Source: Chrysophaeum taylorii (lineage: Eukaryota; Sar; Pelagophyceae; Pelagomonadales; Pelagomonadaceae). From it: a stretch of 38,647 nucleotides of DNA. Position numbers and translations under genes: made by a program. Position 1 is the first letter of the stretch; each line of letters begins with the position of its first letter. Below the pieces are notes generated by a model. It was given only the letters and a program-made list of their open reading frames with translations, made no database searches and was not told where the DNA came from. Location: contig JAQMWT010000329.1 of NCBI GenBank assembly GCA_029834535.1, positions 1-38,647 of the forward strand, read 5' to 3'. Positions 2,956-32,700 of this stretch are shown piece by piece.

Positions 2956-2959
2956 GCAG

Positions 2960-5827: not shown

Positions 5828-6016
5828 TAGAGAACAGTAAAAAATCATTGTGCCTCTGGTAGAGAATGGTGGCAGTGGTAGTGCTGCCTTTCGTCCTGTC
5901 ATCTAACGACACTAAGAGCAGCACGGTGTGCGACACAGCGATTTAGTCGTTGTAAGTGTGAATGATGTGTTTAAGGGGGAGGGGGGTTTCTAACCCTAAA
6001 TGGGATTTCTATCTCT
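5828..6016 (+). repeat. Repeat R1, copy a (core only)
   Basis: First of four copies of a dispersed repeat. It starts TAGAGAACAGTAAAAAATCA, contains CTCTGGTAGAG, GTCCTGTC, CTAACGACAC and GCGACACAGCGATTTAG, then a G-rich run, and ends with CTAACCCTAAATGGGATTTC and TATCTCT. Here it ends at 6016, where the gypsy-1 protease sequence begins. The longer copies continue with a CCCTCGCAGATTGAACTCGG block that is missing here. The insertion truncates gypsy-1 after its protease. The repeat contains a telomere-like CCCTAAA unit. Confidence 0.8.
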
Positions 6017-6579: not shown

Positions 6580-7290
6580 ATCCTTCTTCCGCCTTCCAAG
6601 CCTACTCAGTAATCACCAGACAGGAAGGTGATTCCATAGGCTCATCATGGAAGCGATGTTCCTCGGACGGGAGACTATCATCGTCACTTTCGTCCTCATC
6701 ATTCCCGTCCGACACGTTTCCTTCCATAAGTTCAGAATTCTGGACAGGGCAACTTCCTGACCGCTTACTGTCATCCTGATTCTCACCCAGAACGTCGAGC
6801 CATCGAGCTGCGGCTCCATCGTTGCGTCGTTGCGCTGACTGGTGCTCGCCTTCTGCTGCTGCTGCTCCCTTGCCGCAGTAGTCGGCTGGTGGGCTTGACG
6901 CATTAACGACATCGTGTTCAAAGCGTTTGCAATATCCTCCAATCTCACTGAAGTCCGCGCGACCTGCTGTGCGGCGGACTGGTGCTGGACCACCTGCTGC
7001 GAAGCACCCGTGATCACCGGTGGTTGACCTGCACCTGTGCCCTGTGCTGCTGTGTAGACCATATGCGGTGGCTGTCCAAAGGGTCCCTGTAGTCGTTGAG
7101 TCACTGAAGCTCGACTCGCGACAATGGCTTGCCGATACTGTTCCTGTCCTTCCGCGGTCGGAGGGAATCCAGCATCTCTCAACGTGCGGGTGGCGCGTTT
7201 TTTCCTCTGAGGGTTGCTCGGTTTCCCGTTTTCGTGCCCAATGTTGCGGAGTCCAAGCACGTCGTCACCGCTTGACACGAATCAGGGTCA
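6580..7290 (-). pseudogene. Gypsy-1 gag C-terminus and gag-protease linker
   Basis: After the gag core the frame shifts near 7280. It then encodes a basic segment (QRKKRATRTLRDAGFPP) and a Gln/Ala-rich linker (REQQQQKASTSQRN). A second shift near 6770 leads into an acidic run (GNVSDGNDEDESDDDSLPSE), then a TGA close to 6615, before the protease. A possible degenerate zinc knuckle (CxxxxC...GHxN-like) lies around 7240-7300 but is split by the frame change, so I do not rely on it. This is a gag-pol junction in a dead element. Confidence 0.45.
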
Positions 7291-7943
7291 AGACCCGAGG
7301 GCAGCCAAGATGGCGCTTCGGAATTGGTAACATACCCGGCCAGCTGCCGTTGCCGCAGCCATTCCTTCTTCCGTGCCGCTCGTTCTTTCTGACTTTTCTC
7401 CTTGTACTTCTTCGATTCGTCCTCTTCATCAACCGACGGATGGGCTTCCAATATCTTAGCTATCTGCGCAGTCAGATGGATCACATAATCCAACGTGCGC
7501 GCTCTCTCAGGTGCTGAGATCTGAGCGTATTCAACGTCGTGTCGCAACTTGGCTGACTGTAATCCGGCGATAAAGTGCATCCTGAAAGCCGATGGATCCA
7601 TCGTTTGTCCAGACGAAGCTCGCCATTGACCGAACTTCTGGATCCACTTACTCACGTACTTCGAGAGCGGGAGGTTGCCTTGCTGCATCCGGTACCAGTC
7701 CTTCTCCAATTGCGCTGGAGTGGACCGGGGCGGACAAGGCGACAACAGAGCTTCCTCAATAGCATCGAGGCACTCTTCGTCGTGCCGACGTAGTTCGGCT
7801 CTCGTAATAAGCCCCCGTCGGAACCGTTCCCACATAGGCTTCCGCTCTTCTTCCCACTTCAGATAGGGCGCCATTGGGGCTCGCTGGTACTCGCCTTGTA
7901 CCATAATCATGGCGATCAAAGGCCGGTCCATTTTTCTTCTCAA
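7290..7943 (-). pseudogene. gag: Gypsy-1 gag core (Retrotrans_gag-like)
   Basis: Capsid/nucleocapsid precursor of a Ty3/gypsy-like element. The helical core reads LEKDWYRMQQGNLPLSKYVS, then WIQKFGQWR, then AFRMHFIAGLQSAKLRHDVE. This is the typical pattern of the retrotransposon gag domain (Lys/Gln-rich helix, Tyr-x3-Phe/Trp, then Phe-x-x-Gly-Leu). A Lys/Glu-rich coil (EEDESKKYKEKSQKERAARK) follows. The phase differs from that of the N-terminal part upstream (break near 7920), so the gene is frameshifted. It would build the virus-like particle in the cytoplasm. Confidence 0.6.
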
Positions 7944-8799
7944 TCGTGCGCCGAAGCTGACGGAACCACGTCAACACCTCATCACGCGGTTTGACGATGG
8001 GTCCCGAAAGCGCCTGAAAAGGCAGCTTAACCTCCCCTGCAGCGCCCCTCTCCATGTCGATGTCGTCGTCGCCGTCGCGGGGACGAACTAAATCAGGCTC
8101 GGAATGCCGTCGCCGCGTAGGCTCCGGATGCCTCCGTGGCGGTGGATCGTCCGAAAGTGATGACATAACGTCGTCTTCTCTTTCTGGAGTTACGCGAGTA
8201 ACATCGGGAGAAGGTGGCCGTTCCTCTCGGCTTCGCCGTGACTCTTCGAGCTCCCATTGGAGACGTTCGCTTTCAAGTCGATGACGCTCAGCTGCTTGAC
8301 GCTGGCGTTTTACCTCTGCTTCGAGATAGTTAATCTGCGTCAGGGACGAAACGACTCGTTCGTTAATTCCCCGTAACAGGTCGGGATCAATTCCTCCCTT
8401 CTCTTCTCAAGCGGCAGCAGACACGGGGGGTGGTACCGGAGGTGCGCTCGCCTCCGGTTCCCGCGTCGCTGCTGGAATTCCAGAGTCGGACCGAGGCCGT
8501 TCCGTAGTACCCGCCCCGCTCCCTCGTGCGTGTACGGGCATAGGCCTCGGCTCGGGTCTGCTGGATGCTTCATACGCAGACACTGGAGCTGTCGTATCAC
8601 CCGTAGTGCCTGCTTCGTCTCTCCCTGCAGTGCGTATCTCTGGCAAGTCTACCACACTCGGGACACGTTCCACTGGAGTGGTCTCCTTTCGTTCGTCACC
8701 CGTCCCGGCTCCAAGCCGTCGTCGGACAGATGCCTCAATTGTCGGGGTGATGGCACGCGTCAGGCGTTCTGTCGTGCCGAACCACCTTGTGGGTTCCAT
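7920..8799 (-). pseudogene. gag: Gypsy-1 gag N-terminus with an in-frame TGA
   Basis: From an ATG ending at 8799 the frame encodes MEPTRWFGTTERLTRAITPT and a Pro/Ala/Thr-rich region to a TGA at 8409-8407. It continues in the same phase with a coiled coil (YLEAEVKRQRQAAERHRLES) and an Arg/Pro/Asp-rich segment (DDPPPRRHPEPTRRRHSEPD), then loses phase near 7920. The TGA stands between PPVSAAA and EEKGGID and could derive from an Arg CGA codon. The N-terminal 139 codons lie in the left unit of a 417-bp tandem duplication. Confidence 0.5.
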
Positions 8800-9234
8800 G
8801 GTGAATTTTCTCGGCTTCTCTTCTCAAGCGGCAGCAGACACGGGGGGTGGTACCGGAGGTGCGCTCGCCTCCGGTTCCCGCGTCGCTGCTGGAATTCCAG
8901 AGTCGGACCGAGGCCGTTCCGTAGTACCCTTCCCGCTCCCTCGTGCGTGTACGGGCATAGGCCTCGGCTCGGGTCTGCTGGATGCTTCATACGCAGACAC
9001 TGGAGCTGTCGTATCACCCGTCGTGCCTGCTTCGTCTCTCCCTGCAGTGCGTATCTCTGGCAAGTCTACCACACTCGGGACACGTTCCACTGGAGTGGTC
9101 TCCTTTCGTTCGTCACCCGTCCCGGCTCCAAGCCGTCGCCGGACAGATGCCTCAATTGTCGGGGTGATGGCACGCGTCAGGCGTTCTGTCGTGCCGAACC
9201 ACCTTCTGGGTTCCATGGTGAATTTTCTCGGGTA
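8401..9234. repeat. Tandem duplication, 2 x 417 bp
   Basis: Bases 8401-8817 and 8818-9234 are nearly identical direct repeats, differing at only a handful of positions (for example ACCCGCC versus ACCCTTC near 8510 and 8928). The unit of 417 bp is 139 codons, so the duplication keeps frame. Each unit holds an ATG (8799 and 9216, minus strand) and the whole Pro/Thr-rich gag N-terminus up to the TGA. The few differences suggest a recent duplication, or recent gene conversion. Confidence 0.95.
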
Positions 9235-12543: not shown

Positions 12544-13181
12544 TAGAACACAGTAAAAATCACTGTGCCTCTGGTAGAGCATGATGGCAGTGGTAGTGCC
12601 ACTCTCAACGCCCTGTCTCTAACGACACAAAGAGCGGCAAGGTGATAGACACAGCGATTGTTGGTGATTTGAGTGTGTGAGTGTGAAAGGTAACCCTAGA
12701 AAGGAACTTACTATGTGTATGCCCTCGCAGATTGAACTCGGGAGAGTAAAATCGCGAACAAAAAAAAACAAATGTGTGGCGGAGGCTTTTGGAGTACCTA
12801 CCCTGCCCAGTATGTTTTTTAATACTCGGCGTTGGTACTTTAAACGCCTCAGCCACATGTGGCCAAAGACAAAGAGAAGTTGAGTTCCAAGGAGGCGTGT
12901 AGTAAGAGGTGTGCGAAGTGCATGAGAGAAGCGCGGAGATCGAGATAGCAGGTGTACATCGGTGAGAAAGGGGAAGTGCGCAAAGTATAAAGAGGAACAA
13001 TTGGTAAGAGGTGACAAAGTGAGGAGGCGAATGTAAGAAGAGGAGGCGAATAAGGCGAAAGCGGAAAGTGTCGGCTGCAAAAGGGAAGAAGCTGTGGATG
13101 AGAATGCTAGATGAGTGAGATGTGAAACAAGGTGAATACAACAATAGAGGTCCGATCGCCATCTTGTCCAGTGACTAATGA
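12544..13181 (+). repeat. Repeat R1, copy b (long form)
   Basis: The core runs from TAGAACACAGTAAAAATCAC to the CCCTCGCAGATTGAACTCGG block. Homology with copy c then continues through GTGTGCGAAGTGCATGA to a shared end (CATCTTGTCCAGTGACTAATGA here). It starts exactly where the transposase similarity stops. The minus-strand open frames in this segment (such as 12605-13162) have no protein similarity and look like chance. The purine-rich tract at 12960-13100 includes two GAGGAGGCGAA units. Confidence 0.8.
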
Positions 13182-14826: not shown

Positions 14827-14869
14827 AAAATTCGTTGGCTGGGTGCCAAGCGAAAGAACGTTCCCTGAC

Positions 14870-15379
14870 TAGAGAACAGTAAAAATCACTGTGCCTCTGG
14901 TAGAGAATGATGGCAGTGGTAGTGCTGCCTTTCGTCCTGTCCTCTAACGACACAAAGAGCAGCACGGTGTGCGACACAGCGATTTAGTGGTTGTAGGTGT
15001 GAAGTGATGAGGTTAAGGGGGTTGGGGGGGGGTTCCTAACCCTAAATGGAATTTTCTATCTCTACGCCCTCGCAGATTGAACTCGGGGATGAGCGAAATC
15101 TGGAACAAACAAAACAAATGTCTGGCCAAGGACAAATGGATGTCGAGTCGTGAGGAGGTATTGAAGGAAAGTGTGCGAAGTGCATGAAAGAGATAGAGGA
15201 AAACGAAACGCAGGTGGTGTGTGAAGTGAGAAAGGAGAAAGAGCGGGTGATCAAAGAAAGGAAAAAGCATCGATCGTGAGTAAGAAGAAAAGTGGAGGAA
15301 GATGCTAAGTAGGCTAACGATGAAGTATGGCGAATGTTGTGCGAGAGAGCAGATCGTCATCTTGCTCGGTGGCTAATGA
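14870..15379 (+). repeat. Repeat R1, copy c (long form)
   Basis: Starts TAGAGAACAGTAAAAATCAC and contains CCTCTGGTAGAGAATGATGG, CTAACGACACAAAGAGC, a G-rich run, CCTAACCCTAAATGG and CCCTCGCAGATTGAACTCGG. It then shares GTGTGCGAAGTGCATGA with copy b and ends CATCTTGCTCGGTGGCTAATGA. It lies in the same orientation as copies a and b. Together with copy b it brackets the 452-codon gene like terminal direct repeats. Confidence 0.85.
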
Positions 15380-15879: not shown

Positions 15880-16692
15880 CTACAAATTTGCTGTAGCTTT
15901 GGGTTCGTACTCTAAATTTGCTGTAGGTTTGGTTTCGTAGTCTCGTGTAAGTAGCCAGTGGCTATCATAAAAAAATGATTGGGCGGAGACTGAGGTTTGC
16001 GAGTGTATCGCGTATGATGGTGGGTACAGGCGTGTGTCCTGTGCTGACGAGTCGGTGCCCTGTGCATAAACCGCAGAAGAGTTGGGCAACAGAAGAGAAT
16101 GCCGGAAGGCGATGGACTGCTTGAAGATAGTGTCCGTGCCAGGGGGAGAGTTGACTTCGAAGGTATGGTCAAAGTCGCATCTTTCGTGTTCTATGTTGCT
16201 AAGTGACCCTGAACTGTGACAATCGACTAATCCATTCATTCCATGTCCGGGGTCGTTTTCATCCGAATCAAACGATAAGTTTTCACCAGAATCAAACTTC
16301 CCTCGATGTACAAGCGCGAGGGAGCGTGGTGCATCCCTGGTGAATCGTGCAGTGACGGGAAGGGGTGACATTCGACAGAAGGGTTTGTGAGTTTGCTCAA
16401 AAGAGGGCTTGGTCGGATTGAAGTGCTTGTGCGGGTGGCGCTTGTTATGTGCGATGCAGTCGGTGCATAAGTCGCGATACGGTAGGTCTGAGGCAGAGAA
16501 GCCAGGGCGAGCCAGTACGTTGGGGGCCTTGGCTGCAACGTTGTCGGGGCAGTGGTGCACCCGGTGGAAGCGATTGGCACGTTCTTTGGCGTTGAGGTAT
16601 TCAGCAGATCCGCGTGCGAAGGATTTGCGAGGAATGGGATGAGCGGGGATATGGCGTTTGCGCCGAACATCGAACTTGAGTTCGGTGTCCAA
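15880..16692 (-). pseudogene. Element B, HHCC pre-integrase-like domain plus acidic tail
   Basis: A 270-codon frame. Near residues 40-95 it reads ANRFHRVHHCPDNV, then LPYRDLCTDCIAHNKRHPHK. The His-x3-His and Cys-x2-Cys spacing and the trailing Lys/Arg-His run match the zinc-binding gag_pre-integrase domain of Ty1/copia elements, which helps integrase bind DNA. The acidic stretch that follows (KFDSGENLSFDSDENDPGHG) has no visible D,D-35-E integrase core. So element B either lost its core, reverse transcriptase and RNase H, or they are unrecognisable. This domain is my main reason for calling element B copia-like. Confidence 0.45.
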
Positions 16693-16779
16693 GGCAGGAG
16701 GAGGTGGTGCGTCGTCATCCTGGTGCGCAGCAGGGTCACTTGGAGGTGCATCCTCATCATCACAAGTAGCGAGAGTATA

Positions 16780-17310
16780 TTAGTAGGACGAAGATATATA
16801 GCTTAACGACATTTCGGTCAAGCAGTTGCTGGAGATAGAAGTCATGAAGGCTTGTGCCAAAGACAAGGTATCTGTGCTGCACGTGGTGGAGGCCGGATCA
16901 AAGGTCATGAAGTTGGATACATAGGATTTCTTCATCACGGCAGCAGTATGTTGGAAGGTAGGGTCCAACATAAGAGATTTAATATCGGCAACGAGGAGCG
17001 AAAGGTGCTTGTACAGTGTGCTGTACGTACCGGCAGGCAGAGCATTGCTGAGCATGTCGCAGCAAGGGTCGTGGCGAAGAGACAAGAGGAAAGATTCCCG
17101 TTGTTTGGTGTGGTTGTTAGCACGAATCAATTCCGGTCGAGTATGATAGCGTAGTTTGCCGTTGCGAGGGTCGAGTAAGATAATGTTTGCATACCCTCGG
17201 ACGGTGGGCAATGGAGCAAGCATGGAGTGGATTTTAGAGCCGAGTTTGCGGTCACTTCCACGAAGATACCCTATGGCGACTATGGGATAAGTGGTGATCT
17301 TCCAGAGCAA
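16780..17310 (-). pseudogene. Element B, unidentified region (second part)
   Basis: A 176-codon frame continuing the upstream frame (17252-18253) after a shift near 17290. It contains PIVAIGYLRGSDRKLGSKIH and YANIILLDPRNGKLRYHTRP. The second stretch resembles a beta-strand pair, and these blocks could be a very diverged integrase or an added domain; I cannot assign them. It ends with CLTEMSLSYIS, where motif copy 4 is located. The stop lies just before the HHCC domain frame. Confidence 0.35.
16799..16819 (-). repeat. SLNY motif, copy 4
   Basis: On the minus strand this reads GACCGAAATGTCGTTAAGCT and so on, matching the motif of copies 1 and 2 at 19 of 21 bases. It encodes EMSLSY in the open frame. 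Confidence 0.6.
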
Positions 17311-17924
17311 AATGAGAATCTTTGTAGTCGAAAGAGTTTTCGGCGGCCTTGTAGGTAAGGCAGCCAGGCATCACAAGAGAGCATCTGGACAAGAGCTTCT
17401 GTATGGCGGTGCCATAGGTGGCAGCGGAGCCAACTTGAGGAAGGGCTTGGATTATCCACAAGTAACCCATAAACGGCTCCAAATATGTAGATATGTCTTT
17501 GTCGCGGGGGACGTTGGAGGCAGTAAACGTACACGTGCTTCCAAAAGCGTCAATGGAAGCATGGTTTTTGGTGGCGGCGTTTTCTATGGTGAGGTTGCCG
17601 TCAGAATGGTGGCCGCCGGTTAGGAAGTAGGTATTGTGTGATGCTGATGAGGTTGTAAGTAGCAGCCTATGTGACGGTTGGTCAGTTTCGAAAACGGTGA
17701 TGTAATAGGACACAGGAGTGGGTGAGTTAGTGTGCAATCTGGCAAACACATTATAGAGGATGGTAAAAGCCTTGACACGTAATGGATTAGTTGCATGTGG
17801 CAGTGGTTCCAAGGAGGAGCGTTTGAAACACAGCTGATGGTAAGTACACTCGGACTGAACAGAGTGCGTGCGTTGCTCGTGCGCCTGTTGTGAGTGAAGG
17901 CGTAGAAATGACAAATTGAGTGTT
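17252..17924 (-). pseudogene. Element B, unidentified region after the methyltransferase (first part)
   Basis: This phase is joined to DNMT-B by a one-base shift near 17950. Beyond the methyltransferase motif X it encodes about 220 residues: SYYITVFETDQPSHRLLLTT, then TYFLTGGHHSDGNLTIENAA, then YLEPFMGYLWIIQALPQVGS and CSLVMPGCLTYKAAENS. The composition is globular and the frame uninterrupted, so this was probably a folded domain. I recognise no family. In published retroelements the integrase normally follows the protease, so this block and the methyltransferase are extra. Confidence 0.4.
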
Positions 17925-18737
17925 TCAAGGACAGTCATAGTAAGCTGAACAGATCCTATGCGAGAGTAAGGTGCAAACGTTTTTAGGAACGGGGACATCT
18001 GGTGGATCGGGGAACACCCGGATCCAGTCTTTGGCGATATCTTTGGATAGCCAAAGTCGCTTAGGAATGCCTTGTATGTCATCCACGATCTTAAGGAAGG
18101 GGCGTGAGTGGTGGATAGACCATGAAAGTATGTTGATTGGGCCAGTAGAATACCTGCGTGCGATGCAGATCCATCTTCCCCTAGATTGGTAGTCGCCACA
18201 TAGGTAGGTCGGGAACCTGTCAACAACATCGACACAGTAATCGAGTGTGGCATGGATGAGGTTGGCCACAGTTATGTGGTCTTGATGACAGTACTTGTGG
18301 AGTGGTGTCATCTCAGCCAGTAGTACCAAGGGTTGGAGAAGTTTGATGACAGACAGCATGCTGTCGAACAGAGAGTCGTCGAGCAGGCTGTGTAAGTCTT
18401 CGGTCTTATGCTGCTTTAGTAGATTCCTGTTGGTGCAGGGAGGAGTTATCTCAATAATATCGCAATAAAATTTGCGCCTTTACTCTGGTGAGATTAGGTG
18501 AAGATGGTTGATAAAGGCAGGTAAAGATTCAAATAATAATACTGTAGGAAAACGGTGGCGTAACATGCGCACAAGCGTATCATCAGACTCAACAACAACT
18601 TTTACATTGATACTTAAGCCTAGGTCATTAGTGGCTTGAGACAGGAACGCTGGGGTTGACAAACCAGAACAAAGTAACAAGACAGAGGGTTTGCGAAGAT
18701 TGGGCTCATGTGAGAGAAACACTGGGCGAGAAAGCAT
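17910..18737 (-). pseudogene. DNMT-B: DNA cytosine-5 methyltransferase inside element B
   Basis: Transfers methyl from S-adenosylmethionine to C5 of cytosine. Visible motifs, in order: I, VLLLCSGLSTPAF (residues 19-31); II, KVVVESDD; IV, the catalytic loop FYCDIIEITPPCTNRN with Cys in the codon at 18435-18437; VI-like, PLVLLAEMTP; VIII, LCGDYQSRGRWICIA (about 18200-18150); X-like, RIGSVQLTMTVLETL (about 17955-17910). Motif I to Pro-Pro-Cys is about 75 residues, normal for the family. The target-recognition stretch is short, about 60 residues. A TAA at 18482-18480 splits motifs II and IV, and a one-base shift near 17950 precedes motif X, so this copy is dead. It is in phase with the protease upstream, separated by one TGA (18740-18738). 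Confidence 0.75.
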
Positions 18738-19421
18738 TCATGTTAATGGCGGAGTGTTTTGCTCGACGAACTTGTTCTGTTTCCGAAGATTAAGAACCAA
18801 AGGGCGAATCCACGGCCGATCTGGTAAAACTCTCTTGAGGAGATAGTTATAATATGCCAGTAGATCCCTGTTTTCGTGGTATCGCTTGAGCGGAAATGCG
18901 AGGGAGCGTAGTTCGAGTTGCTTGTCGCGAGCGATGTTGTAGGTGAGACAAGGGAGAGCAGGCAAATTAGCTGCTACGTAACGTATGGGAATACGCACAT
19001 CTTTGTCTATGCGGCTCGTGACAGCGCGGAGCTTTGGCTCAGATCGATTATTGAGCACAGTGGTCAAGTTCGTATGGTTCCACTCGAGCATGCTCAAGAT
19101 AGCGAGATGTCGGTTGTGCACTGGCTGAAGACATAGGGCGAAGTCAATCTTCACGTAACCGATTTGTGGATGATCTGGCAGGGGGACAACTATATTACGT
19201 GTTAACATCATATGTGAGGCACGTTGTTGTCCAGTGGCAGTTTGTATAATAATCGGCGCGTATTTGGAATCCAGTGGAATAATATGATTTGGTATCGCAT
19301 AGTCGTAGGTGGACATTAATGATATGGTAGCACAAGAGTCAAAATATAAAAAGGAACAATGTTGGGGGACACTGTTTACCTTCATATATTTCGTTAGAAG
19401 TGCATTTTCCGAAGCGGGCAA
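18738..19421 (-). CDS. Element B retropepsin-like aspartic protease
   Basis: A 227-codon frame. The active-site region is SFLYFDSCATISLMSTYDY (residues 23-41), corresponding to the Asp-Ser/Thr-Gly-Ala loop of retropepsins but with Cys in place of Gly. A flap-like TATGQQ (about 61-66) and NRHLAILSMLEWNH (about 103-116, equivalent to the usual hydrophobic-Leu-Gly-x-Asp/Glu-Trp block) support the assignment. It overlaps the end of gag by 28 bases in another phase, the usual layout for programmed frameshifting into pro-pol. Its TGA stop is followed immediately by the ATG of DNMT-B in the same phase, so the two may have been one polyprotein. Role: polyprotein processing. Confidence 0.6.
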   Translation of the reverse strand: MPASENALLTKYMKVNSVPQHCSFLYFDSCATISLMSTYDYAIPNHIIPLDSKYAPIIIQTATGQQRASHMMLTRNIVVPLPDHPQIGYVKIDFALCLQPVHNRHLAILSMLEWNHTNLTTVLNNRSEPKLRAVTSRIDKDVRIPIRYVAANLPALPCLTYNIARDKQLELRSLAFPLKRYHENRDLLAYYNYLLKRVLPDRPWIRPLVLNLRKQNKFVEQNTPPLT

Positions 19422-21526
19422 GTAGTGGAGAGGCTGGCAGTGAAGAAGTTCTCCATAAATAACAAGTGAGTTGGAATGATAATCGGCTGAACAGGTGGTG
19501 ACGGTTCGTCAGCCTCATCAGCCATGCCGTGCTTCTCATCAAATGATGATAGCGAGGTCGGATCGACATCCCTTGTGGTTTCGGCTCGTGGTGGTTGGTT
19601 GATGGCTGATTGGACCTGTGAAGATAGCGAGGACAGTAACGCTGGTGGTAACGCCGAGATGGCGGAAGCAGTAAAGAAGTCAGGCACAATATCAGAGGGA
19701 TCACCCTGTGTGTTGGAGGCATTCCTGATATCTGTAGGAGGAGTTGTCTTTGGGGTGGGAGCAGTAGCAATAGTATGATGTTGTGGCTCCACGTAGTTTA
19801 ACGACTTTCCGGTCGAGGATAGATGAACGTCTACATCATAAATGATGTCTTCTGCGAACATGAGTTGTTCGTTTAGGCGAAGTAAGTCACTATTGTCCTC
19901 AGTAGATGTCGTTGACAGAATATCAGCGGATTGCAACAGAGTCTCACATAACTTGGTGATGTTCTGTTGTAGCTGAGCCGTGATATCATTATCTGTCACA
20001 TGCTTCGTAAGTTCACTACACTGCTCTTGCAGTGTATTTAAGGTGTGCTTCGTTCGGTCCAACAATTTCATGTTAGATCGAGAGGACCTGTCGAAAGTGC
20101 GGGGGCAAATTGGACGGTCATGGGACCGTCCAGCAGTTTTCTTGGTGACATAAGAATCACCAGAACGATAATACGATAGGTCGCTGCGAGAGAAAGGCTG
20201 GCGTGCATCGTTAGAGTTACGCAAGCGTCTAGCGTTAAACGTGGAGGATGTTCCAGGTTGAGAAGAAGTAATGGACGCGAGTGCGTTTGCAGTTTGAGTC
20301 AGACTTTTGTCTGATAGGTCCAGCGTGTTTGTCAGTAGAAATGTTGGCTTTGCTTGTGGTGTCAATCCTTCAACATAAGGTTGCCAAGAAACAGGGCGTT
20401 CTAAGCGTCTTTTGTTCGACCCATTTGATACTACATTATATAAGTCTGATGCGTATTCTAAGATATAGCTAGGATTGGTAGGGTGACACAATCGTTCAGC
20501 GTCTGGCACAGGCCGAGATGAAGATCGAGTTTCATACATACAACACCAGTCTGCCCAACCACGATCGTAACGATTGTTGCTGGTATTATCGGCATAATGC
20601 CGATGTATCTCTTCATAAATTTTCCTACAAAGAGTACCAAAGTCGAATTGAAGGTCAGTCTCTTCCTGGTTAAGTTGGTAAGAGATTTGCCTAAACGCTA
20701 GGACAGCTTCAATAAAGACATGGACATACCAGTTAGGGTCATAAACAACAGAGTTAAACTGCTGTTTCAGGTAGGATACATCAGTAGTCGCAACAGACTC
20801 GTAGTGACTAAAGGCAATGAGCATAATGGCGCGAGCCTTGTTGGGCAAATAAATTTTGTTATACACCTCACTGATGGCGGGCCAGGCCGCAAGTGCTGGT
20901 TTTCCAACACGTTCAAGATTGAAGTAAGTATGCAAGAATGTAGCATACGTGTTCTGACAAGTGTGCCAATCAGCAGCAGTTAACGAAAACATGGTAACAG
21001 GGGCACGAACGCGGGTGTCAAAAGCTAATGCTTTCGGGTGCGCGCGATTTAAGATTCGTCCCTCTTCTAAGAAACGAAGATTGATTTCAGGGCGCAATGT
21101 CTTGACTTCATTGTCGTAAGAGATAGTAGCTAGCTGGGCTACTTCTGCGTCAGTTAAGTTGGGGAAAGCTTCATTGGTGAAGTGCCATTCCTGATACTCA
21201 GGGGGCAATTCATCAACAGCTAAATGGAGATCAGGAGCCCTATCGGTCTTCCATTCCAGGAAAACGCGATCGAGAATTTGATTCCGGTGGATCTCGTAGT
21301 CCTTGCATGACCGAGTGTAAGCATCGTACGAGTCGTACTCGAGGAAGGCATCGGCATGACTGGACCGTAATAATTGTTGAATATGCTTAATTTGCAAGGA
21401 TACCTTGCGGGTCTGAAGCTGAAATCGATTTCCTTCGTTAAGAAACTCAACTACAGGAGCTTCGAGCTTCCGTATGTCCGCACCTGTGATCGCCTTGGGT
21501 GCGGCTCGTGCTGCGTGTTCTGCCAT
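19394..21526 (-). CDS. gag: Element B gag-like protein, 710 aa
   Basis: Uninterrupted frame from an ATG ending at 21526. The first 330 residues are predicted helical and globular (VEFLNEGNRFQLQTRKVSLQ; later QDEE-like Gln/Asn-rich turns), in the style of copia-type gag. A basic Ser/Arg stretch follows (about 430-500, including RRLRNSNDARQPFSRSD), then a coiled coil (LNTLQEQCSELTKHVTDND). The tail is Pro/Thr/Ser-rich and disordered. I see no CCHC zinc knuckle; the basic stretch may bind RNA instead. It is the first gene of the element and overlaps the protease frame by 28 bases. Motif copy 3 lies within it. It is the best-preserved gene of element B. Confidence 0.6.
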   Translation of the reverse strand: MAEHAARAAPKAITGADIRKLEAPVVEFLNEGNRFQLQTRKVSLQIKHIQQLLRSSHADAFLEYDSYDAYTRSCKDYEIHRNQILDRVFLEWKTDRAPDLHLAVDELPPEYQEWHFTNEAFPNLTDAEVAQLATISYDNEVKTLRPEINLRFLEEGRILNRAHPKALAFDTRVRAPVTMFSLTAADWHTCQNTYATFLHTYFNLERVGKPALAAWPAISEVYNKIYLPNKARAIMLIAFSHYESVATTDVSYLKQQFNSVVYDPNWYVHVFIEAVLAFRQISYQLNQEETDLQFDFGTLCRKIYEEIHRHYADNTSNNRYDRGWADWCCMYETRSSSRPVPDAERLCHPTNPSYILEYASDLYNVVSNGSNKRRLERPVSWQPYVEGLTPQAKPTFLLTNTLDLSDKSLTQTANALASITSSQPGTSSTFNARRLRNSNDARQPFSRSDLSYYRSGDSYVTKKTAGRSHDRPICPRTFDRSSRSNMKLLDRTKHTLNTLQEQCSELTKHVTDNDITAQLQQNITKLCETLLQSADILSTTSTEDNSDLLRLNEQLMFAEDIIYDVDVHLSSTGKSLNYVEPQHHTIATAPTPKTTPPTDIRNASNTQGDPSDIVPDFFTASAISALPPALLSSLSSQVQSAINQPPRAETTRDVDPTSLSSFDEKHGMADEADEPSPPVQPIIIPTHLLFMENFFTASLSTTCPLRKMHF
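19792..19814 (-). repeat. SLNY motif, copy 3
   Basis: Matches copies 1 and 2 at 21 of 23 bases on the minus strand, inside the element B gag, where it encodes GKSLNYV in the gene's own frame. Confidence 0.7.
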
Positions 21527-22364
21527 GGCAGTTGACTGGAACCTGTGGGTTCAGTCACGCAGTTGACACTGTCTAGACATTCTAAGGGGGTCTGTCTATC
21601 GGTGTCTATGTACACTCATGCGTTATCGATGGAAAAATGTCTATTTGACAACGGTGCAAGCTGTGAGTCCAGAGTAGTGCCGCTAAGCGTAGTCACTCAT
21701 GGCAGCTGGTTATTTTGGTGCTCTCGAGGAGCTTGGTAAGTGCATTGCCATGGAATGTACGAGTGGACGTACCCAAAATATTCCATAACATGTGTGCAAG
21801 AGTACAGGTTAGCCAACTTACACACACATCAACATTAACATGACAATACGATACTATGAACAGGTGCACACAAGGTTACACGATCACGTGTGCAAAATGT
21901 GCTATATACAGCCCAATGGTAATGACGTTATATTAACAAGCGTGTTTGCGTGGCGAGGCTGGACCGGCGCGGTAACAGTCCAAAACCCATACGTTACGTG
22001 CACGCGTTGACACATGGTTTCTCAGGGACCCGCCTGGGCCCGCAACCTGCAGAGCATTTATAGCATGCAGTGGTAAGTCACCTGGGATACCATCCCGTCT
22101 CATCACAAACGTCTGGAAGTATTTAATTCGGGGAATGAAAGGTTATGTTCCCTATATCCTCAGAACACGACAGGCGGCATCTAGAACTATACGAGAAAGG
22201 CTAAGTGTATAGTGCTACATACCTCGGGACGCGCTTGACCATGATGATGAGCTTGAGCACAAATCAGAGAACTAATTGACTGTGTAGAAAGGAAGAAGAA
22301 GGGTAAGGAAGATATCACGCTCTCAACGGACGGATAAGGGTAAGAGGCAGCAGATTTCCCTGCA
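21527..22364 (-). promoter_or_regulatory. 5' leader of element B with TATA-like boxes
   Basis: No gene seen. On the minus strand, upstream of gag, there are TATA-like sequences: GCTATAAATGC (about 22056-22068) and GTATATAGCAC (about 21900-21912). They could drive element B. The stretch is the expected place for its 5' LTR and leader, but no second copy of it is present in the window, so LTR ends cannot be defined. The gene-free run ends at R1d. Confidence 0.25.
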
Positions 22365-22599
22365 TGTTTGTTCCAGATTTCGCTCATCACCGAGTTCAAT
22401 CTGCGAGGGCGTAGAGATACAAAATCCCATTTAGGGTTAGTACCCCCCCCCCTTACATCACACTCACACCCAATAACCAATAAATCGCTGTGTCGAACAC
22501 CGTGCCGCTCTTTGTGTCGTAAGAGGACAGGGCAACAGGGTGGCACTACGACTGCCATCATTCTCTTCCAGGGGCACAGTGAATTTTTTCTGTTCTCTA
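22365..22599 (-). repeat. Repeat R1, copy d (inverted)
   Basis: Reverse-complement copy of the R1 core. Read on the minus strand it runs TAGAGAACAGAAAAAATTCA, CACTGTGCC, GAGAATGATGGCAGT, CTTACGACACAAAGAGC, a G10 run, CTAACCCTAAATGGGATTTT, then CCCTCGCAGATTGAACTCGG and ATCTGGAACAAACA. Similarity to copy c stops after AACAAACA. It lies between elements A and B. Confidence 0.85.
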
Positions 22600-22771: not shown

Positions 22772-23989
22772 TCACTGGACGAGGAAGGCCGTTCGCTCGC
22801 CACACACCCACAAACAGCTTCCGTGCCTGGTCCTCACAACTCGAGGACCGGCTGTTGCTTTATGATTAAGAACACTTGAATCACAGAAATCAGGGAAGAT
22901 GATGTCATAGAGAAAACTGACATCATCAGATCGGAGTAGGGTGCCCCTGATAACGGGGGGCCCTAAAGGAGGGGTGAGCCTTAGGAGACGGGAGTTTCCG
23001 CCACAGGACTCCCCTGGTGAGAATACGAGCTGCCCCAGCGAGCTGCTAGCGCGAGGAGCGCGGCTTGGCCTTACGAGCATCTCGTGAGAGAATCTTCTTG
23101 TGAACGCGGGTGATGATCGGTTCGGGAACGCGACCCTGCGTAGAGAAAACTTGGGGACCAACACATCAGTCTCGTGCGGAGCGAAACCCGTGACACAAGG
23201 AGTTGTGCTGGATGAGATCTTGGACTTGTCGGTGAAACTGCGACTGTCAACGTCCTCGTACTCAGGCTCGAGCTTGCGGTGCGAAAGGTGAGAGGTCGGC
23301 TTGAAATAAGCGACATCATCGTTCGGACCCAAATCGGAATAGAAATGTAGAGCAACACGATCAATCTGGTGATCGTAAGGCTCGTAAACTTCAGCAACAT
23401 AGATCTTCTTGCGCCAATCAGAACGCTTCCGGTCAGGAATCCGGAAAAAAACAAACTTACCGTGGTGATAGTCATCACGGAAGGTTTCTTCGGGTTTGCG
23501 GATGGCTTGATCAACGATCGGGGGAACCATCACAGGCGTGATCTGACTAACATGAACACGTCGTTCTTCGGGCGGAGAGTCGAGAGACTCAATCCTATAG
23601 GTGACCGGGAAAAGGCGTTCCTTGATAATAAACGGTCCTCGCCATTCCGGTCGAAGCTTGTTCTGAAGGAAAGGAATGTAGAGCAAAACATGCGACCCTC
23701 CCTTGTATTCGACATCGACATGATCGGCGTTGTAAGCCAGTCGTTGTTTCTTCAGAGCTTTTTCACGAGCTTCGTGGACGATCTTCGTATAATACTTCAA
23801 TCGTTCGCGAGTTTCAGCGACTGCATCAGAGCGAGTCTTTGGTAACAGTCTGGTATCGAAGTCCATAAGCATATAATCGGTCGGTAACATCGACTGACGG
23901 TTCAGGCGTAGCATAAAGGGAGAAATCTGCGTGCCTGGAATAAACTTGCGGAGTAGCAAAACGCAATATAGTGGGTAAAGTCGGGCCAA
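22772..23989 (-). CDS. Element A integrase C-terminus with reader-like extension
   Basis: About 405 codons, joined to the integrase core by a frameshift near 23945. Residues about 25-100 finish the core helices (TRERLKYYTKIVHEAREKAL). The GPY/F DNA-binding module follows: GGSHVLLYIPFLQNKLRPEW, RGPFIIKERLF, then RRVHVSQITPV. After it comes a further domain: DWRKKIYVAEVYEPYDHQID, then RVALHFYSDLGPN and YFKPTSHLSHRKLEPEYEDV. Its W-x4-YVAEV...HFY pattern resembles chromo-, Tudor- or BAH-like beta-barrels seen at the end of some protist Ty3/gypsy integrases, where such domains steer insertion to chromatin marks. That function is inference. The last 150 residues are Ser/Arg-rich and may be read-through of non-coding sequence. 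Confidence 0.55.
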   Translation of the reverse strand: MARLYPLYCVLLLRKFIPGTQISPFMLRLNRQSMLPTDYMLMDFDTRLLPKTRSDAVAETRERLKYYTKIVHEAREKALKKQRLAYNADHVDVEYKGGSHVLLYIPFLQNKLRPEWRGPFIIKERLFPVTYRIESLDSPPEERRVHVSQITPVMVPPIVDQAIRKPEETFRDDYHHGKFVFFRIPDRKRSDWRKKIYVAEVYEPYDHQIDRVALHFYSDLGPNDDVAYFKPTSHLSHRKLEPEYEDVDSRSFTDKSKISSSTTPCVTGFAPHETDVLVPKFSLRRVAFPNRSSPAFTRRFSHEMLVRPSRAPRASSSLGQLVFSPGESCGGNSRLLRLTPPLGPPVIRGTLLRSDDVSFLYDIIFPDFCDSSVLNHKATAGPRVVRTRHGSCLWVCGERTAFLVQ

Positions 23990-24381
23990 TCCGTGATGTT
24001 CCGGCCCTGAAGGCAGGCACGGAGGACGGCCTTGATAAATCGGTTCACACGCTCAGCAGGGTTTGACTGGGCGTGATAGGGAATCGTAGTTTGGTGTCGC
24101 GTGTTGAAGAGATGGCAAAACTCGCGCATCAACTTGTTCACGAACTCTTTACCGTTGTCGGTACGAATCATCTGGGGCAAGTAGCCCTCGAGGAGGATGT
24201 TAATGACAAAAGACTCGATAATGGATTCAGCAGTCCTATCGTTCAAAACATCCAAAATCAAGAAGTGCGAGAACGGATCGAAAAACGCTAGAAGATACGT
24301 CTCGGGACCAGTGCTGGGCAAAGGTCCAAATAACTCCATGCATTGAACAGCGCCATCACCATCGTAGACAGGCTGTTGCAA
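23902..24381 (-). pseudogene. Element A integrase catalytic core
   Basis: Retroviral-type integrase core (rve fold), which joins cDNA ends to host DNA in the nucleus. The first strand reads CMELFGPLPSTGPETYLLAF, the second block MIRTDNGKEFVN and the third PYHAQSNPAERVNRFIKAVL. Asp at residue 75 and Glu at residue 110 are exactly 35 apart, as in the D,D-35-E triad. The first catalytic Asp is replaced by Glu (residue 16, codon 24334-24336). It continues the HHCC frame upstream in the same phase; only a TGA near 24393 separates them. The frame is lost near 23945. Confidence 0.75.
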
Positions 24382-24390
24382 GAGTCCAGC

Positions 24391-24876
24391 TCATTTCGGC
24401 TCAGGATTACGAGCTTTCTGGCAAACTAAACATTCAGCAATGGAGACTCCGACTTCGTTCGACATGTGGGGCCACCAAAATCGTTCCTGGATAGCCTGGA
24501 CCGTACTGTGACGTCCCATATGACCACCGTTGACCGGAGTGTCATGGTAGAGTCGAATAATGCGCTTGCGCAACGTGGCAGGGGCCACAATCATCGGGTG
24601 CAAATCAGCAGAAATGCGGTAAAGTAAGTCTTTCACAACTTCATATCGTTCGTTAGCTCGGTAACGTCGCGACGTATGACCTCGGGCCATCCGATAGCGA
24701 ATATCCTCGCAAGTAGCATCAGATTCTTGCTCACGCGCGATCTCATCGAGCGTCATATTATCGGGAATTTTATCAATATAATCCTTGTAGGCGGCTGCGT
24801 CCTCGAAGACCTGCGGCTCATCGCGCACGCGGTTCTTCCGACGTTGTCTCGTAGCGTGAGACGTAGCCAATCTCAT
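24391..24876 (-). pseudogene. Element A integrase N-terminal zinc domain (H2C2)
   Basis: The HHCC zinc-binding module precedes the core: RIIRLYHDTPVNGGHMGRHS, then FWWPHMSNEVGVSIAECLVC and QKAR. The His and Cys positions (YHDTPVNGGH and CLVC) are those of the integrase H2C2 domain, which supports integrase multimerisation. The upstream part links it to RNase H. The frame ends in TGA directly after NPEPK and continues in phase as AGLLQQPVYDG, so the TGA is an internal nonsense codon; an ancestral CGA is possible. Confidence 0.75.
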
Positions 24877-25259
24877 CGGATCTTTTTCGGGATCTTCTTC
24901 CTCGTCTTCCGGCAGTTCGGTCGTAACAACGACAATATGAAGTGACAGCCGGAAACCGGAATTCCTTGGTCATCAATAGGTCGGGGAAGCTCTTGGAACA
25001 CCAAATAAGCGTGGTTCAAAGGCTCACCAAACTCGTCTGTCTCGATGACATGATCTATCGGATTGCGGGAGAGACAGTCAGGGATACTCATGCTCGGTGA
25101 CTTTCCCGGCTCGTAACCATGTTCAGGGTCAAAGTTGGCGAGGCGCATCGCCCTACGAGCAAGCTGCCCAGACGAATGCGTCGCCTTACATAAAAACGCC
25201 AAATTTCGGTGATCGGTCTCCAAAACACTCCGGTGCCCTTCGATGTAGGCTCGAAAGTG
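24873..25259 (-). pseudogene. Element A RNase H, C-terminal half
   Basis: Continuation of the RNase H domain after an in-frame TAG at 25262-25260. The phase is that of the reverse transcriptase frame. It begins HFRAYIEGHRSVLETDHRNL; the Asp of ETDHRNL is a catalytic residue, and PDCLSRNP matches the C-terminal Asp block (ADxLSR) of Ty3/gypsy RNase H. The domain degrades the RNA strand of the RNA-DNA hybrid. The tail leads toward the integrase, with a phase change near 24870. Confidence 0.75.
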
Positions 25260-26909
25260 CTATAGAGAAAGTATAACTGCCAGCAGCTCTAGCCGACGGG
25301 GCTCATAATTGCGCATCTCCTTCGGCACGGCTCGGCTCCAGTATTCAATCACTCGTTCTTCTCGAGTCACTCTTCCTGCCTTGTCCTTGACTTCGACAAT
25401 CTGGAAGGGATATGCTCCAAGTCCATCCTTGGAAGCATCGGATCGGATCTGAAAAGGCAGATCATAATCGGGGTGGTAGACTCCTCTGGAATCAACCAAA
25501 GCCTCAATAATCGTATCCCAAGCCTTTTGACACTCGGGCGTCCACTCGAACTTTACGCCTTCGAGGCATAATCGTCTCAGCGGTTCCACAATCTTCGAGT
25601 AGCCTTTCACATATCGCCGGCAGTAATTACTCATGTCGATGAAAGAGCACATCTGGGTCTTCGCATAAATATTCGGCAAAGTACCTGGAATGGGCATCTT
25701 CTGCAGTGCCTCCAGCATCTTCGGATTTGGCTTCAAGCCTTCTGGGGTCGAAATGTGTCCCAGAAATTCTATCGCATCCTTGAGAAGGTGGAACTTCGCG
25801 GTTCGACCGCTGTACCCTCTCTGCGCCAAATGACACATAACTTTGATCAAAACTTGTAAATGTCGATGAAGATCGTCGGACCCCATCATAATATCGTCAA
25901 CAAACGCAACCAAGTCTCGATACATCCATTTCGAAAGGTCGCTCGCTATCTGCTTGCAGAAAAGAGCTCCGGCCGTCTTCACACCCAGAGGTAATCGCAA
26001 GACACTATGAGCGCCAAGTGGGCTAACCATCGTGACAGCGTCTTGCGCTGCCGGATCCAGACGAAGGTTGTGGTATCCCCTTCTAATATCACTGCATGTC
26101 CGCCAGCGTCGCATGGCGAGAAAAGCTAAAGCATCGTCTTGTCAAATGTTCGGCCAACTGTCATTGACCAATTGATCGTTGAGCTGACGTAAGTCAACGG
26201 CAACACGGAACGCGTTTGACGTTCCAATCTCAGCTCCTTTCTTGGGAAGCATCAACAGAGGAAATCCCCAAGGTGAGTTGGCCGGGCGAATGACTCCATC
26301 CCGACACCACTCACTGATCTGCTTGCGGAGACAATCGAGCTTCGCAGCCGTCAGTCGGTAGGGCGTCATCTTAATCGGTCGCGGATTCGCGTCTTTGAAT
26401 CGCAGAGACACAGGTGGCGAGTCCACAGGTCTCATAATCGGGTCGAAAAAGGCCCAAGAATATTGCACACAGTGACGGAGCATCAGCTTCGCATCGTCAT
26501 CTAAGTGCGGATTGTCAGGAATTCCAAGCTCCTGTACAACCCTGTCAACTTCTTCCTTCGTAGGAATCTTCACTTTCATAGCGTGGTTATCCTTGACATG
26601 CTCGGGAGTTTGCGGCAGCGGTGCACCATCAGCATCGCGCGGCGCATCTTTCCATGGCACATCGAACTTTTTCTCATATTTTAGTCTCACTTCCGGGTGG
26701 CTTTTGTTGATCTTCTCGCCTTTGACACGAACGCTCGGCTCGCTCTTAATCTTCGGTTCCCGATTTCGCTCAGGATCTGGTGGAACGTCCAAATTTGGTC
26801 GGGGGGGGGGGGGCAGCGGAAGAAGCATGATACGTCCCCGGCTCATCTGTTGCAGGCGGAAGCAAAGGCACCTCTGGAGGTTTCCATCTGGTGCGATATT
26901 GGAGATCAT
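25260..26909 (-). pseudogene. pol: Element A reverse transcriptase and N-terminal RNase H
   Basis: Ty3/gypsy-type reverse transcriptase. The fingers read KMTPYRLTAAKLDCLRKQIS, then RDGVIRPANSPWGFPLLMLP and FRVAVDLRQLND. A TGA at 26144-26142 (after DSWPNI) breaks the frame, which resumes in the same phase with TCSDIRRGYHNLRLDP (motif A Asp) and DLVAFVDDIMMGSDD (catalytic FVDD for the usual YxDD). Thumb and connection are present (FLGHISTPEGLKPNPKMLEA). RNase H begins PFQIRSDASKDGLGAYPFQI and has the second acid in RRLELLAV. Upstream, a 13-G run at 26801-26813 (plus strand) marks the phase change from the DNMT-A frame. The element is dead but easily classified. Confidence 0.9.
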
Positions 26910-27309
26910 CAGTCGACACCCATCTTACGACACGTGTGCGCGTGTTTAACAGCGGAACTTGTACGAGACGAAGGGTGGTTTCGTCGATTTGCAAATAATA
27001 ATCAAACGGTCGGCCTGCAGGACTCAACGCGGACGGTAAAGCCTCGCCGAGCAAGCGAAAATCCTTGGTCACAGAGTTGTGCTGATCGAGTACCAATAAG
27101 GCCATCGTGTCTGGTGGCACGACGGACGCCAGGTGTTTCAACGAGGTCGTCCTGGAGAAGCCGGCCCAATCAAAATCAAGGGGCATCGTCAGCAACTCCG
27201 ATGTCATTTTCAGATTGAGAGATCTGTAATCGGAAAACGGTGCGGTCCTACGCGAAGTGGGACACGCACAACGGTATAAGCTGCGTCTGTCGCGGCTCGC
27301 GATGATCCT
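26814..27309 (-). pseudogene. DNMT-A C-terminal part (motifs IX-X) and linker to RT
   Basis: Immediately after the SINE-like insertion the minus strand is open from about 27309. It reads RTAPFSDYRSLNLKMTSELL, then TMPLDFDWAGF and LKHLASVVPPDTMALLVLDQ. I align LKMTSELLTMPLDFDW with motif IX (LTxxE...GFPxxFxF) and LASVVPPDTMALLV with motif X (GNAVPPxxA) of cytosine-5 methyltransferases, i.e. the end of the domain whose motifs I-VIII lie on the other side of the insertion. The following 100 residues link to the reverse transcriptase and end in a proline run at the poly-C tract. The alignment is by eye; an unrelated linker is the alternative. Confidence 0.5.
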
Positions 27310-27318
27310 AACTTGTTC

Positions 27319-27685
27319 TAACTAACTAACTCACTAACTTCAGACCTCTCCCGAGCATGGGAGCCAGGCCGGACCGACAGGAGCCAGTCCGGAATCACGG
27401 GCCTGTAGACGAGGAGCGCCGAAAGGTCGGTCGGCGGAGAGTGACCATCAAGCTTGTCGCCATGCGACGAGGAGACCGCGATGTGACTGACAACCAACTC
27501 GTCGATAACCTTCCGTCTTCGCCCCCCGGCCATACCCCGTCCCACTGCGAACGTTCCGGCTGCCAACCGGCCCGCCCGGGAGGCGAATAGGTGCCAACCT
27601 ACGCCGGGAGGCCGGATGCCCTCGCAAGGCTCAGGATTCATGAGGCACCGTCCTCCATCGCAACCGCAGTCGGCGATCAGGGTAA
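27319..27685 (-). mobile_element. SINE-like (or LINE 3'-end) element, copy 1
   Basis: Read on the minus strand it starts near TACCCTGATCGCC and contains GGTTGCGATGGAGGACGGTG, CGCCTCCCGGGCGGGCCGGT, then GTCCGGCCTGGCTCCCATGC and GGGAGAGGTCTGAAGTTAG. It ends in a GTTA repeat, a typical non-LTR tail. Copy 2 at 32289-32688 shares the head, middle and tail with many substitutions and indels. No clear target-site duplication is visible. It sits between the motif I-VIII part of DNMT-A and its putative motif IX-X part. Confidence 0.65.
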
Positions 27686-27706
27686 GGGATGAAATGTTCG
27701 TCTGAA

Positions 27707-28735
27707 TTAAATGTCGTTCGTAACACCAAGCGCAGCAGCGAACTCTTGTTGCATATTCTTGCAAGTCTTGGGAACTGCGCGTAAATGGGGCGGATGGCTG
27801 GAAACCAACAACCGCACGCGACAGCTCATCAAACTGGGCGTTATGTCGTAAAAATGGACGACGTACACGTAAGGGTGCAAACGCGCAACATAAGGAATAA
27901 TCGAGGCCTCCTGCTCGATCAACCACATAAAGAAACCAGCCATCTTGCATAATTTCATCGTCCGGTGGGCGGCGGTGACTCCCTTCCCAACATCTCTGTA
28001 AGTCAAGTTGCACAGAGCAGAGTGTACGCAGGGTGGCGACGCGATACACATCGACGACGACCATTCCGCGTAAGGTAAATAAGATTCGATCAACCGTAGG
28101 GTTGTAACATAGCGACCACAAAGTGAGTGCTGCACCACAGGAATGTTCGGAAAATTCTTGCGGTGGATCTTGTTGGCGGTGTCCGACGCATCGAGTGCTA
28201 ACACGACTCGATACGACGTCCCGCATATTTCGTTGGCTCGTTGGAGACCTAAAGTGCTGCCTCCGGCTCCACTGAACAGCATCACCACCTTGCGATAAGT
28301 GATCGGAAGCCATTGAACCTTTTCGTATCGGCGGCGGATCTCCGCTTCGGTGATCTCGCGGCACTTTTTCTCATCTTCTTCAGACCGTCGAGCGAAATCG
28401 TCGTCTCGCTTGGGTCGTTTGGAGGAGGACTCGTCCACAGCAGCGGTTGGAGCGTCCTTCTGCGCCGTGCTCAGCAACATCGGCGGGGGAGATTCGTCGA
28501 AGCGCGTCATGCGGCTAGTGACGGAAACGGTGAAAGAAAGGTTCCCCTTGTCGTACCCTTCTTCACATTCTTTCATAAGCTCGTTGATCGTAGAAACGTT
28601 CATCTCATCTTCGTACCGAACGATGTCGCCAATTGCAAGAACCTCGCCTTGAGCGACGACCGTCGGCACTTCTAGCGTGGAAGTAACAGCCACGCGAGCA
28701 GATGGCTTGTCGTGCTCTTCGCTTGAAGAACACAT
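27707..28735 (-). pseudogene. DNMT-A: DNA cytosine-5 methyltransferase inside element A
   Basis: A 342-codon frame. Residues 10-50 (SARVAVTSTLEVPTVVAQGE) finish the post-protease beta domain, followed by an acidic-basic linker. The catalytic domain starts near 145. Motif I is YRKVVMLFSGAGGSTLGLQR (FSGAGG at 154-159). Motif II is VVLALDASDTANKIHRKNFP. Motif IV is CIASPPCVHS with catalytic Cys236 (codon 28028-28030). Motif VI-like is WLIEQE (271-276) and VIII-like is SLMSCRVRLLVSS. Motif I to Cys is about 80 residues, as expected. The frame stops about 20 bases before the SINE-like insertion, so the target-recognition end is displaced. It methylates cytosine in known relatives; this copy should be inactive. 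It lies between protease and reverse transcriptase of one element. Confidence 0.8.
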
Positions 28736-29067
28736 CCCTGCGACAATTCCCTACTGTTCGTTTTCAGCAAACGCAGCGACGAATACCTGTCCGTTTTCAT
28801 AGGCTTCGACAAAATAACCGGTAAATTGCAAGTTCGACCGGGCTCGATTTGTAGCGTGCGCGCGGCGTAAGCAACCACTTCCTGCGCGGCTTCTCCCGGA
28901 GCTGGGGAGAGTTTGGTCGTACAATGTCCCCGCGTCATCAAGGCTACCGCTCGTTCCGGCGGCGGGCTGCGGAGATCTTCAATCGTGCTCAGACGAGCGT
29001 AAACTCGAGTCTTGACCAGGTCGAGACTCTGCCGAAAGCCGTCGTGCTGATGATTGTAAGTCGGCAC
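28672..29067 (-). pseudogene. Element A post-protease beta domain
   Basis: Encodes GEAAQEVVAYAARTLQIEPG and RTCNLPVILSKP before a phase change near 28760. DNMT-A's frame then continues with RVAVTSTLEVP and VLAIGDIV. Together these resemble the dUTPase-like or beta-rich segment found between protease and reverse transcriptase in some Ty3/gypsy polyproteins (basic, then 'EPG', then 'VLP/IPV', then a 'GdvVA'-like strand). It links the protease directly to the methyltransferase and supports one continuous polyprotein. The family name is uncertain. Confidence 0.4.
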
Positions 29068-32688: not shown

Positions 32689-32700
32689 CTCATGTTTTCT

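Follow-up and report, generated by a model that had tools for sequence, protein, structure and literature searches.

The window, a stretch of 38,647 nucleotides (positions 1 to 38,647 of contig JAQMWT010000329.1, here C329) from the pelagophyte Chrysophaeum taylorii (assembly GCA_029834535.1), carries on its minus strand a decayed copy of a retrotransposon in which a methyltransferase-like domain, here named DNMT-B, stands between a protease-like part and the integrase. DNMT-B is very probably a diverged C5-cytosine DNA methyltransferase (C5-DNMT) located at the N-terminus of the Pol protein of a Ty1/copia family of C. taylorii; its enzyme activity is a prediction.

The copia family with DNMT-B and its copy in the window

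The genome (70.8 Mb in 697 contigs; 71 Mbp in 702 contigs in the published assembly, PMC10366177) was searched with the 184-aa stop-free middle piece of DNMT-B. Its light-harvesting genes, of the fucoxanthin-chlorophyll a/c type, agree with C. taylorii and speak against Perkinsus as the host. At least 150 places were scored among 959 candidates, with 74-95% identity besides the piece itself, and in 117 of these 150 places (counted by hand) the piece was free of stops. Twelve stretches of 7.6-9.9 kb were fetched, picked for long open frames. Several of them share one plan: an open reading frame (ORF) 1 of at most 960 aa, a single in-frame stop and then ORF2, which is at most 1691 aa long. In the better copies, named below by contig (C) or locus (L), DNMT-B is uninterrupted and fused to the integrase and a copia reverse transcriptase (RT); in L031, L033 and L035 a single frame spans the domain and the integrase stretch, in one of them continuing into the RT. 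Downstream of the DNMT part, Pfam placed in ORF2 of the C42 copy the domains rve (residues 784-866, E 0.0076, below the rve cut-off), SH3_retrovirus (E 5.6e-4) and RVT_2 (residues 1431-1651, E 7.7e-42), which is the copia order. Two direct long terminal repeats (LTRs) flank the C333 copy (315 bp, 95.9% alike, ~11.2 kb apart) as well as the C127 copy (314 bp, 97.1% alike, 13.5 kb apart). By the RVT_2 domain behind the integrase and the paired direct LTRs, the DNMT-B element is a Ty1/copia LTR retrotransposon, arranged in the order LTR, gag-protease, TGA, DNMT, integrase, reverse transcriptase, LTR. A first-pass annotation of the window, made from its letters alone, had spoken of a copia-like element and was confirmed in this point.

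The copy in the window runs from 22364 down to 16381 and is composed as follows, all on the minus strand:

22048..22364, minus strand: 5' LTR of the copia element, ~315 bp; matches both LTRs of the C333 copy and the 3' LTR of the C127 copy
19415..21615, minus strand: gag-like part of ORF1; 92.5% over 708 aa to ORF1 of the C127 copy (960 aa, stop-free) in tblastn
18741..19418, minus strand: protease-like end of ORF1; 96.5% to the last 226 aa of C127 ORF1; D-S-C-A-T recognised by eye
18738..18740, minus strand: in-frame TGA between gag-protease and DNMT-Pol; TGA at 31 of 32 readable junctions
18012..18737, minus strand: DNMT-B motifs I-VIII, ORF2 residues 1-242, interrupted by a TAA at 18480-18482; 95% to the C127 copy
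17273..17992, minus strand: DNMT-B part behind motif VIII, residues 249-488; 92.5% to the C127 copy, different frame
16950..17274, minus strand: motif IX/X-like end of DNMT-B, about residues 489-597; 96% to the C127 copy, third frame; aligns with DNMT-C (16950 as its end is an estimate)
16381..16950, minus strand: linker ending just short of the integrase core; the copy is lost at 16381, and the rve match of the C42 copy begins at residue 784

Similarity to the window copy was lost at 16380-16385 in all 12 compared copies, thus the integrase core and the RT are gone; the tblastn alignment of the C127 copy stops at 16384, which corresponds to ORF2 residue 785. On the other side similarity ended at 22358-22365 in nine of the 12 copies, while the other three fell short of that point, and the 5' LTR is the only one present. 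ORF1 changes frame against the C127 copy at ~21537 and ~19418. The window copy is a dead, truncated member of the DNMT-B family. Its ORF1 part had no gag match in Pfam, the label "gag" being taken from position, and by position residues 249-488 of DNMT-B are probably the target recognition part.

The five methyltransferase-like peptides listed by the first-pass annotation (VLLLCSGLST, VVVESDD, EITPPCTNRN, GDYQSRGRWICIA and RIGSVQLTMTVL) were all found in the order given, on the minus strand. Its reading through one TAA and one single-base shift was right for the TAA, the single one in the DNMT-B stretch, but the domain contains two frame changes: in tblastn against the C127 copy the frame shifts once between 18012 and 17992 and a second time at ~17273. 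The span of 17910..18737 proved too short, since DNMT-B comprises ~600 aa in all and extends beyond 17910, with stretches resembling motifs IX and X in the ORF 16780-17310. An aspartic protease had been placed directly in front of the domain. A protease-like ORF (18738-19421) does occupy this position, divided from DNMT-B by the TGA; Pfam matched no protease in it, and the DSCAT motif was seen by eye only. The idea of a split gene did not hold. Short pieces in differing frames could indeed come from a host gene or nested gene that an intron or recoding has divided, yet the genome search yielded uninterrupted copies, the middle piece was mostly stop-free, L031, L033 and L035 run without interruption together with the integrase stretch, and the window copy also lacks everything beyond 16381. 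A split gene is ruled out by the uninterrupted copies in the same genome; the interruptions are decay of the window copy, and the probability of the intron or recoding explanation is negligible.

A dispersed repeat of ~120-240 bp occurs in the window at 22365-22599, 14869-15111, 5827-6017 and 12544-12686, one of its copies adjoining the 5' LTR of the DNMT-B element.

Identity and constraint of DNMT-B

C5-methyltransferases are marked by the motifs FxGxG (motif I, the loop binding S-adenosylmethionine), the catalytic Pro-Cys of motif IV, ENV (motif VI) and QxRxR (motif VIII). In 16 aligned copies of DNMT-B the PPC of motif IV was invariant (16/16), as were E142, Q184 and R186, with R188 nearly so (motifs VI and VIII); the first Gly of motif I was present in at least 90% of the copies. 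Stretches resembling motifs I, II, IV, VI, VIII, IX and X follow each other in order and in register with DNMT-C, the domain of a second copia family, in which an LPC corresponds to the PPC. In all likelihood the DNMT-B domain is a C5-cytosine DNA methyltransferase that has diverged strongly.

DNMT-C was found in locus L045 (C96:62000-69000; 1097-6952, plus strand) within a frame of 1952 aa that holds a protease-like motif (by eye), the DNMT, the integrase and the RT; the start of this frame is overlapped, in another phase, by a separate one (377 aa) that its position marks as gag-like. DNMT-C matched PF00145 (DNA_methylase) with E 1.1e-7, above the Pfam cut-off, the NCBIfam model dcm with E 3.4e-8, below that model's own cut-off, and its element RVT_2 with E 1.6e-38. 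Against phage proteins the best match had E 5e-6, and eight of the ten matches listed (47 records) were annotated as DNA methyltransferase; a DNMT-C profile found a cytosine methyltransferase in PDB at E 0.24. The family comprises 69 scored genome candidates (80 match rows), and DNMT-C sits ahead of the integrase, in the same place as DNMT-B.

In a shuffle test the alignment of DNMT-B with DNMT-C gave z 9.4-11.9 in four comparisons covering motifs I-VIII and z 4.0 for the C-terminal, motif IX/X-like parts; none of 500 shuffles reached the observed score in any of the five comparisons. DNMT-B scored weakly against a host DNMT5 (z 3.5) and the gypsy-borne DNMT-A described below (z 4.0), DNMT-C gave next to no score with DNMT5 (z 2.0) and none with DNMT-A, and neither scored against the host DNMT2. 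The test is blind to distant kinship, because the host DNMT5 and DNMT2 had no score against each other, though both are clear members of PF00145. The RTs of both families share 36% identity (97 of 269 columns), compared to 27-29% with another copia RT of the window (36512-38584, plus strand; RVT_2 E 2.1e-35). Judged from these comparisons the DNMT-C family is a relative of the DNMT-B family. A single DNMT capture in a common ancestor may explain both, being the simplest reading and not a demonstrated one.

Several results weigh against the identification. The window pieces of DNMT-B matched no methyltransferase family in Pfam, whereas other copies gave a weak signal: three of 16 matched PF00145, with a best E of 0.0022 and below the curated cut-off where scored (16.5 bits against a cut-off of 22 in one copy). 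Sequence searches of PDB with DNMT-B pieces and a DNMT-B profile found no methyltransferase, and hhalign joined the shallow profiles of DNMT-B and DNMT-C with E 0.046 and a probability of 1.2%. In a Foldseek search the first match was a glycosyltransferase. Motifs I and VI deviate from the usual form: the second Gly of motif I is replaced (GLST) and the Asn of ENV is not retained. Other searches contributed little. A first structure model had a pLDDT of 28, the NCBIfam search of two copies gave nothing useful, and protein-database searches with one DNMT-B region (E 10) and one DNMT-C region (E 1) returned no match. An IMG/VR scan found 13 stretches fitting a pattern, of which none was confirmed; in phage tblastn DNMT-B had a single match, a receptor-binding protein at E 7, and the window piece none.

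Such results would be expected if DNMT-B were an unrelated domain with a Rossmann-like fold that matches the motifs by chance. This is very improbable, as the motif-like stretches are ordered and in register with DNMT-C, a clear DNMT, and PF00145 is nearly the sole family touched by the 16 copies (another Pfam family was touched by one of them); the PF00145 match of L035 falls in the expected register. A low-confidence model built from DNMT-B and DNMT-C superposes on C5-methyltransferases in 49 of the 50 structure matches listed, and by this model motifs I-VIII are also in register with DNMT1/3 structures. The kinship with DNMT-C, the motif register and the model support the divergent methyltransferase domain put forward by the first-pass annotation.

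Seven open-frame copies were used for dN/dS. The median for motifs I-VIII of DNMT-B was 0.11 (21 pairs); the middle part had 0.256 (21 pairs), the end part 0.135 (20 pairs), the integrase 0.21 (6 pairs, four of the seven copies) and the end of ORF1 0.076 (3 pairs), with 0.236 for DNMT-C (10 pairs); picking copies for open frames biases all these values downward, so that the comparison with the integrase is the informative part. The catalytic half of DNMT-B is under purifying selection and constrained at least as strictly as the integrase. A convincing excess of CG transitions was not present in 28 copies (0.139 and 0.109 versus 0.109 and 0.097; CHG 0.072), and differences this small speak neither for nor against self-methylation.

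A domain of C5-DNMT descent could also act on RNA now, or merely bind nucleic acid within Pol, without methylating DNA. The deviating motif I and ENV and the lack of clear CpG decay would suit this. RNA was suggested as a possible substrate for the SymbioLINE DNMTs, which according to the account in PMC5890265 (de Mendoza et al. 2018) failed to methylate DNA in yeast. On the other hand, dN/dS is low and the catalytic Cys, Glu and QxR are invariant in 16 copies; a mere binding part would have no need for these residues, while an RNA substrate would be compatible with both observations. We consider this alternative unlikely but far from negligible, and retain a DNA methyltransferase as the predicted function.

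The conserved TGA and a possible role of DNMT-B

The junction between gag-protease and DNMT was readable in 32 of 37 loci, with TGA in 31 and TGG in one; L029, outside this count, has TGG as well. The codon behind the TGA was ATG in 14 copies, CTA in eight, ATA in six and CTG, ATC and CCA in one each. The diverged copy L057, which shares 73% identity with the first row of A4, reads TGA CTA. Published work describes UGA CUA (G) as a context with weak termination or high readthrough (PMC12233894, PMC4207609). The retention of the TGA at nearly all junctions and the TGA CTA context suggest readthrough as the most likely route to ORF2, which would yield a Gag-Pro-DNMT-INT-RT fusion. DNMT-Pol might instead be made by re-initiation at the ATG directly behind the TGA, without readthrough. 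The window copy is among the 14 that offer such an ATG, but the other 17 of the 31 TGA copies, including the long uninterrupted L031, L033 and L035 and the diverged L057, carry CTA, ATA, CTG, ATC or CCA there, and eight of the 31 present the weak stop context. As a general route this start was dropped, and the whole explanation is rather improbable.

With readthrough as the preferred route, DNMT-B would be produced as a readthrough product and thereby be packed with integrase and RT inside the particle of the element. Joined to these two enzymes, it would be in the right place for a methylation of cDNA. We tentatively propose, at somewhat less than an even chance, that the cDNA of the element is methylated by its own DNMT-B, either prior to integration or at that step. 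In the closest precedent, PMC5890265, de novo CG methylation by retrotransposon DNMTs is reported and methylation of the retrotranscribed cDNA is proposed.

DNMT-A, host methyltransferases and known retrotransposon systems

Besides DNMT-B, the window contains a further methyltransferase-like frame, DNMT-A, in a gypsy element at 22772-29960 (minus strand):

27707..28735, minus strand: DNMT-A in a Ty3/gypsy element, then insertion of a 365-bp repeat; PF00145 E 4.7e-4, residues 149-202

The PF00145 match of DNMT-A reached 20.1 bits, below the cut-off. ORFs for gypsy RT, RNase H and integrase lie downstream on the same strand, in another copy (L058) the DNMT likewise precedes the gypsy RT frame, and 118 genome places were scored. 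PF00145 matches on C260 and C57 (L062, L063) were dropped as host DNMTs; by eye they look like a related DNMT-A-type family, whose DNMT shows a motif IX/X-like end. The 365-bp repeat (window 27323-27690), a short mobile element, lies beside the end of the DNMT-A frame and was also found, 96-98% alike, in or beside the DNMT-B copies L032, L033, L036 and L039.

Two host DNMTs were identified, part of the genome's PF00145 matches having been assigned to families. A DNMT5-like gene in L044 (C621:14500-22500; 1968-7999, plus strand) combines a DNMT (E 8.3e-17) and an SNF2 domain (E 3e-13) in one long frame; DNMT5 has been reported from pelagophytes (PMC9998398). A DNMT2-type protein on contig C634 (DNMT E 4.1e-19) is identical to CTAYLR_008533. 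Both belong to the same C5-methyltransferase superfamily as DNMT-B and lie, as far as seen, outside retroelements. An unrooted tree was built from 17 sequences spanning motifs I-VIII, with no DNMT3 among them; its branches are long, and the tree tool warns of false joins. In this tree DNMT-B and DNMT-C were split from DNMT-A, DNMT2 and DNMT5 at 92/91. Together with the gypsy setting of DNMT-A, this split rules out, on the sequences compared, that DNMT-B and DNMT-A are sisters belonging to a single element family; the two are distinct, as the first-pass annotation had held, and nothing more is claimed from the tree.

DNMT-bearing retrotransposons are already known. SymbioDIRS-Dnmt3 and SymbioLINE-Dnmt of Symbiodinium are, in the account of PMC5890265, likewise present in high copy number, with the DNMT in the coding region and under purifying selection, and in SymbioDIRS it lies within Pol as in the DNMT-B element. 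These are LINE and DIRS elements, whereas DNMT-B belongs to a Ty1/copia LTR element of a stramenopile and stands between the protease-like part and the integrase; Copia elements of Symbiodinium carry no DNMT, as stated in the same paper. KnitGypsy-Dnmt3 of Klebsormidium nitens is also an LTR retrotransposon with a DNMT in Pol (PMC5890265), however a Gypsy with a Dnmt3 that was found by survey, while DNMT-B is copia-borne and below the Pfam cut-off; the gypsy-borne DNMT-A is the closer analogue. By its copia-type RT the DNMT-B element is not a member of SymbioLINE, SymbioDIRS or KnitGypsy, though it may work similarly. One sentence in PMC12344493 (2025) puts some DNMT3 in "LTR Copia and DIRS" elements and names streptophytes and dinoflagellates; it cites the 2018 paper, which has Gypsy, DIRS and LINE elements from dinoflagellates and a charophyte. 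The sentence may be a slip or may refer to a real copia case. The matches listed in an open-literature search included no pelagophyte retrotransposon with a DNMT, and the main text of the C. taylorii genome paper contains no word starting with "transpos" or "copia" (PMC10366177). Within the literature covered, the copia-borne, strongly diverged form in a stramenopile is new.

At least three LTR lineages of C. taylorii carry a DNMT, copia B (150), copia C (69) and gypsy A (118 scored candidates), amounting to hundreds of copies. Copia and gypsy lineages in one stramenopile genome of 71 Mb would mean that captures are more frequent than reported in the 2018 paper, and DNMTs as diverged as these would slip past Pfam-based surveys. 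In Cryptococcus, DNMT5 is reported only to maintain methylation (PMC10538959). If the same applied here, new 5-methylcytosine throughout the genome could stem from the mobile elements, whose Pol DNMT would be rationed through TGA readthrough, a speculation to which we assign a low probability; the mark that lets the host recognise parasites would then come from a parasite. With numerous copies under selection in a culturable host, the benefit that a retrotransposon draws from its DNMT can be put to the test.

Two further repeats were observed in the window. A 417-bp tandem duplication (98.8% identical) occupies 8398-9231, and at 32697-34681 a 576-aa ORF of degenerate ~207-bp repeats lies between identical 112-bp direct repeats (32697-32808 and 34570-34681).
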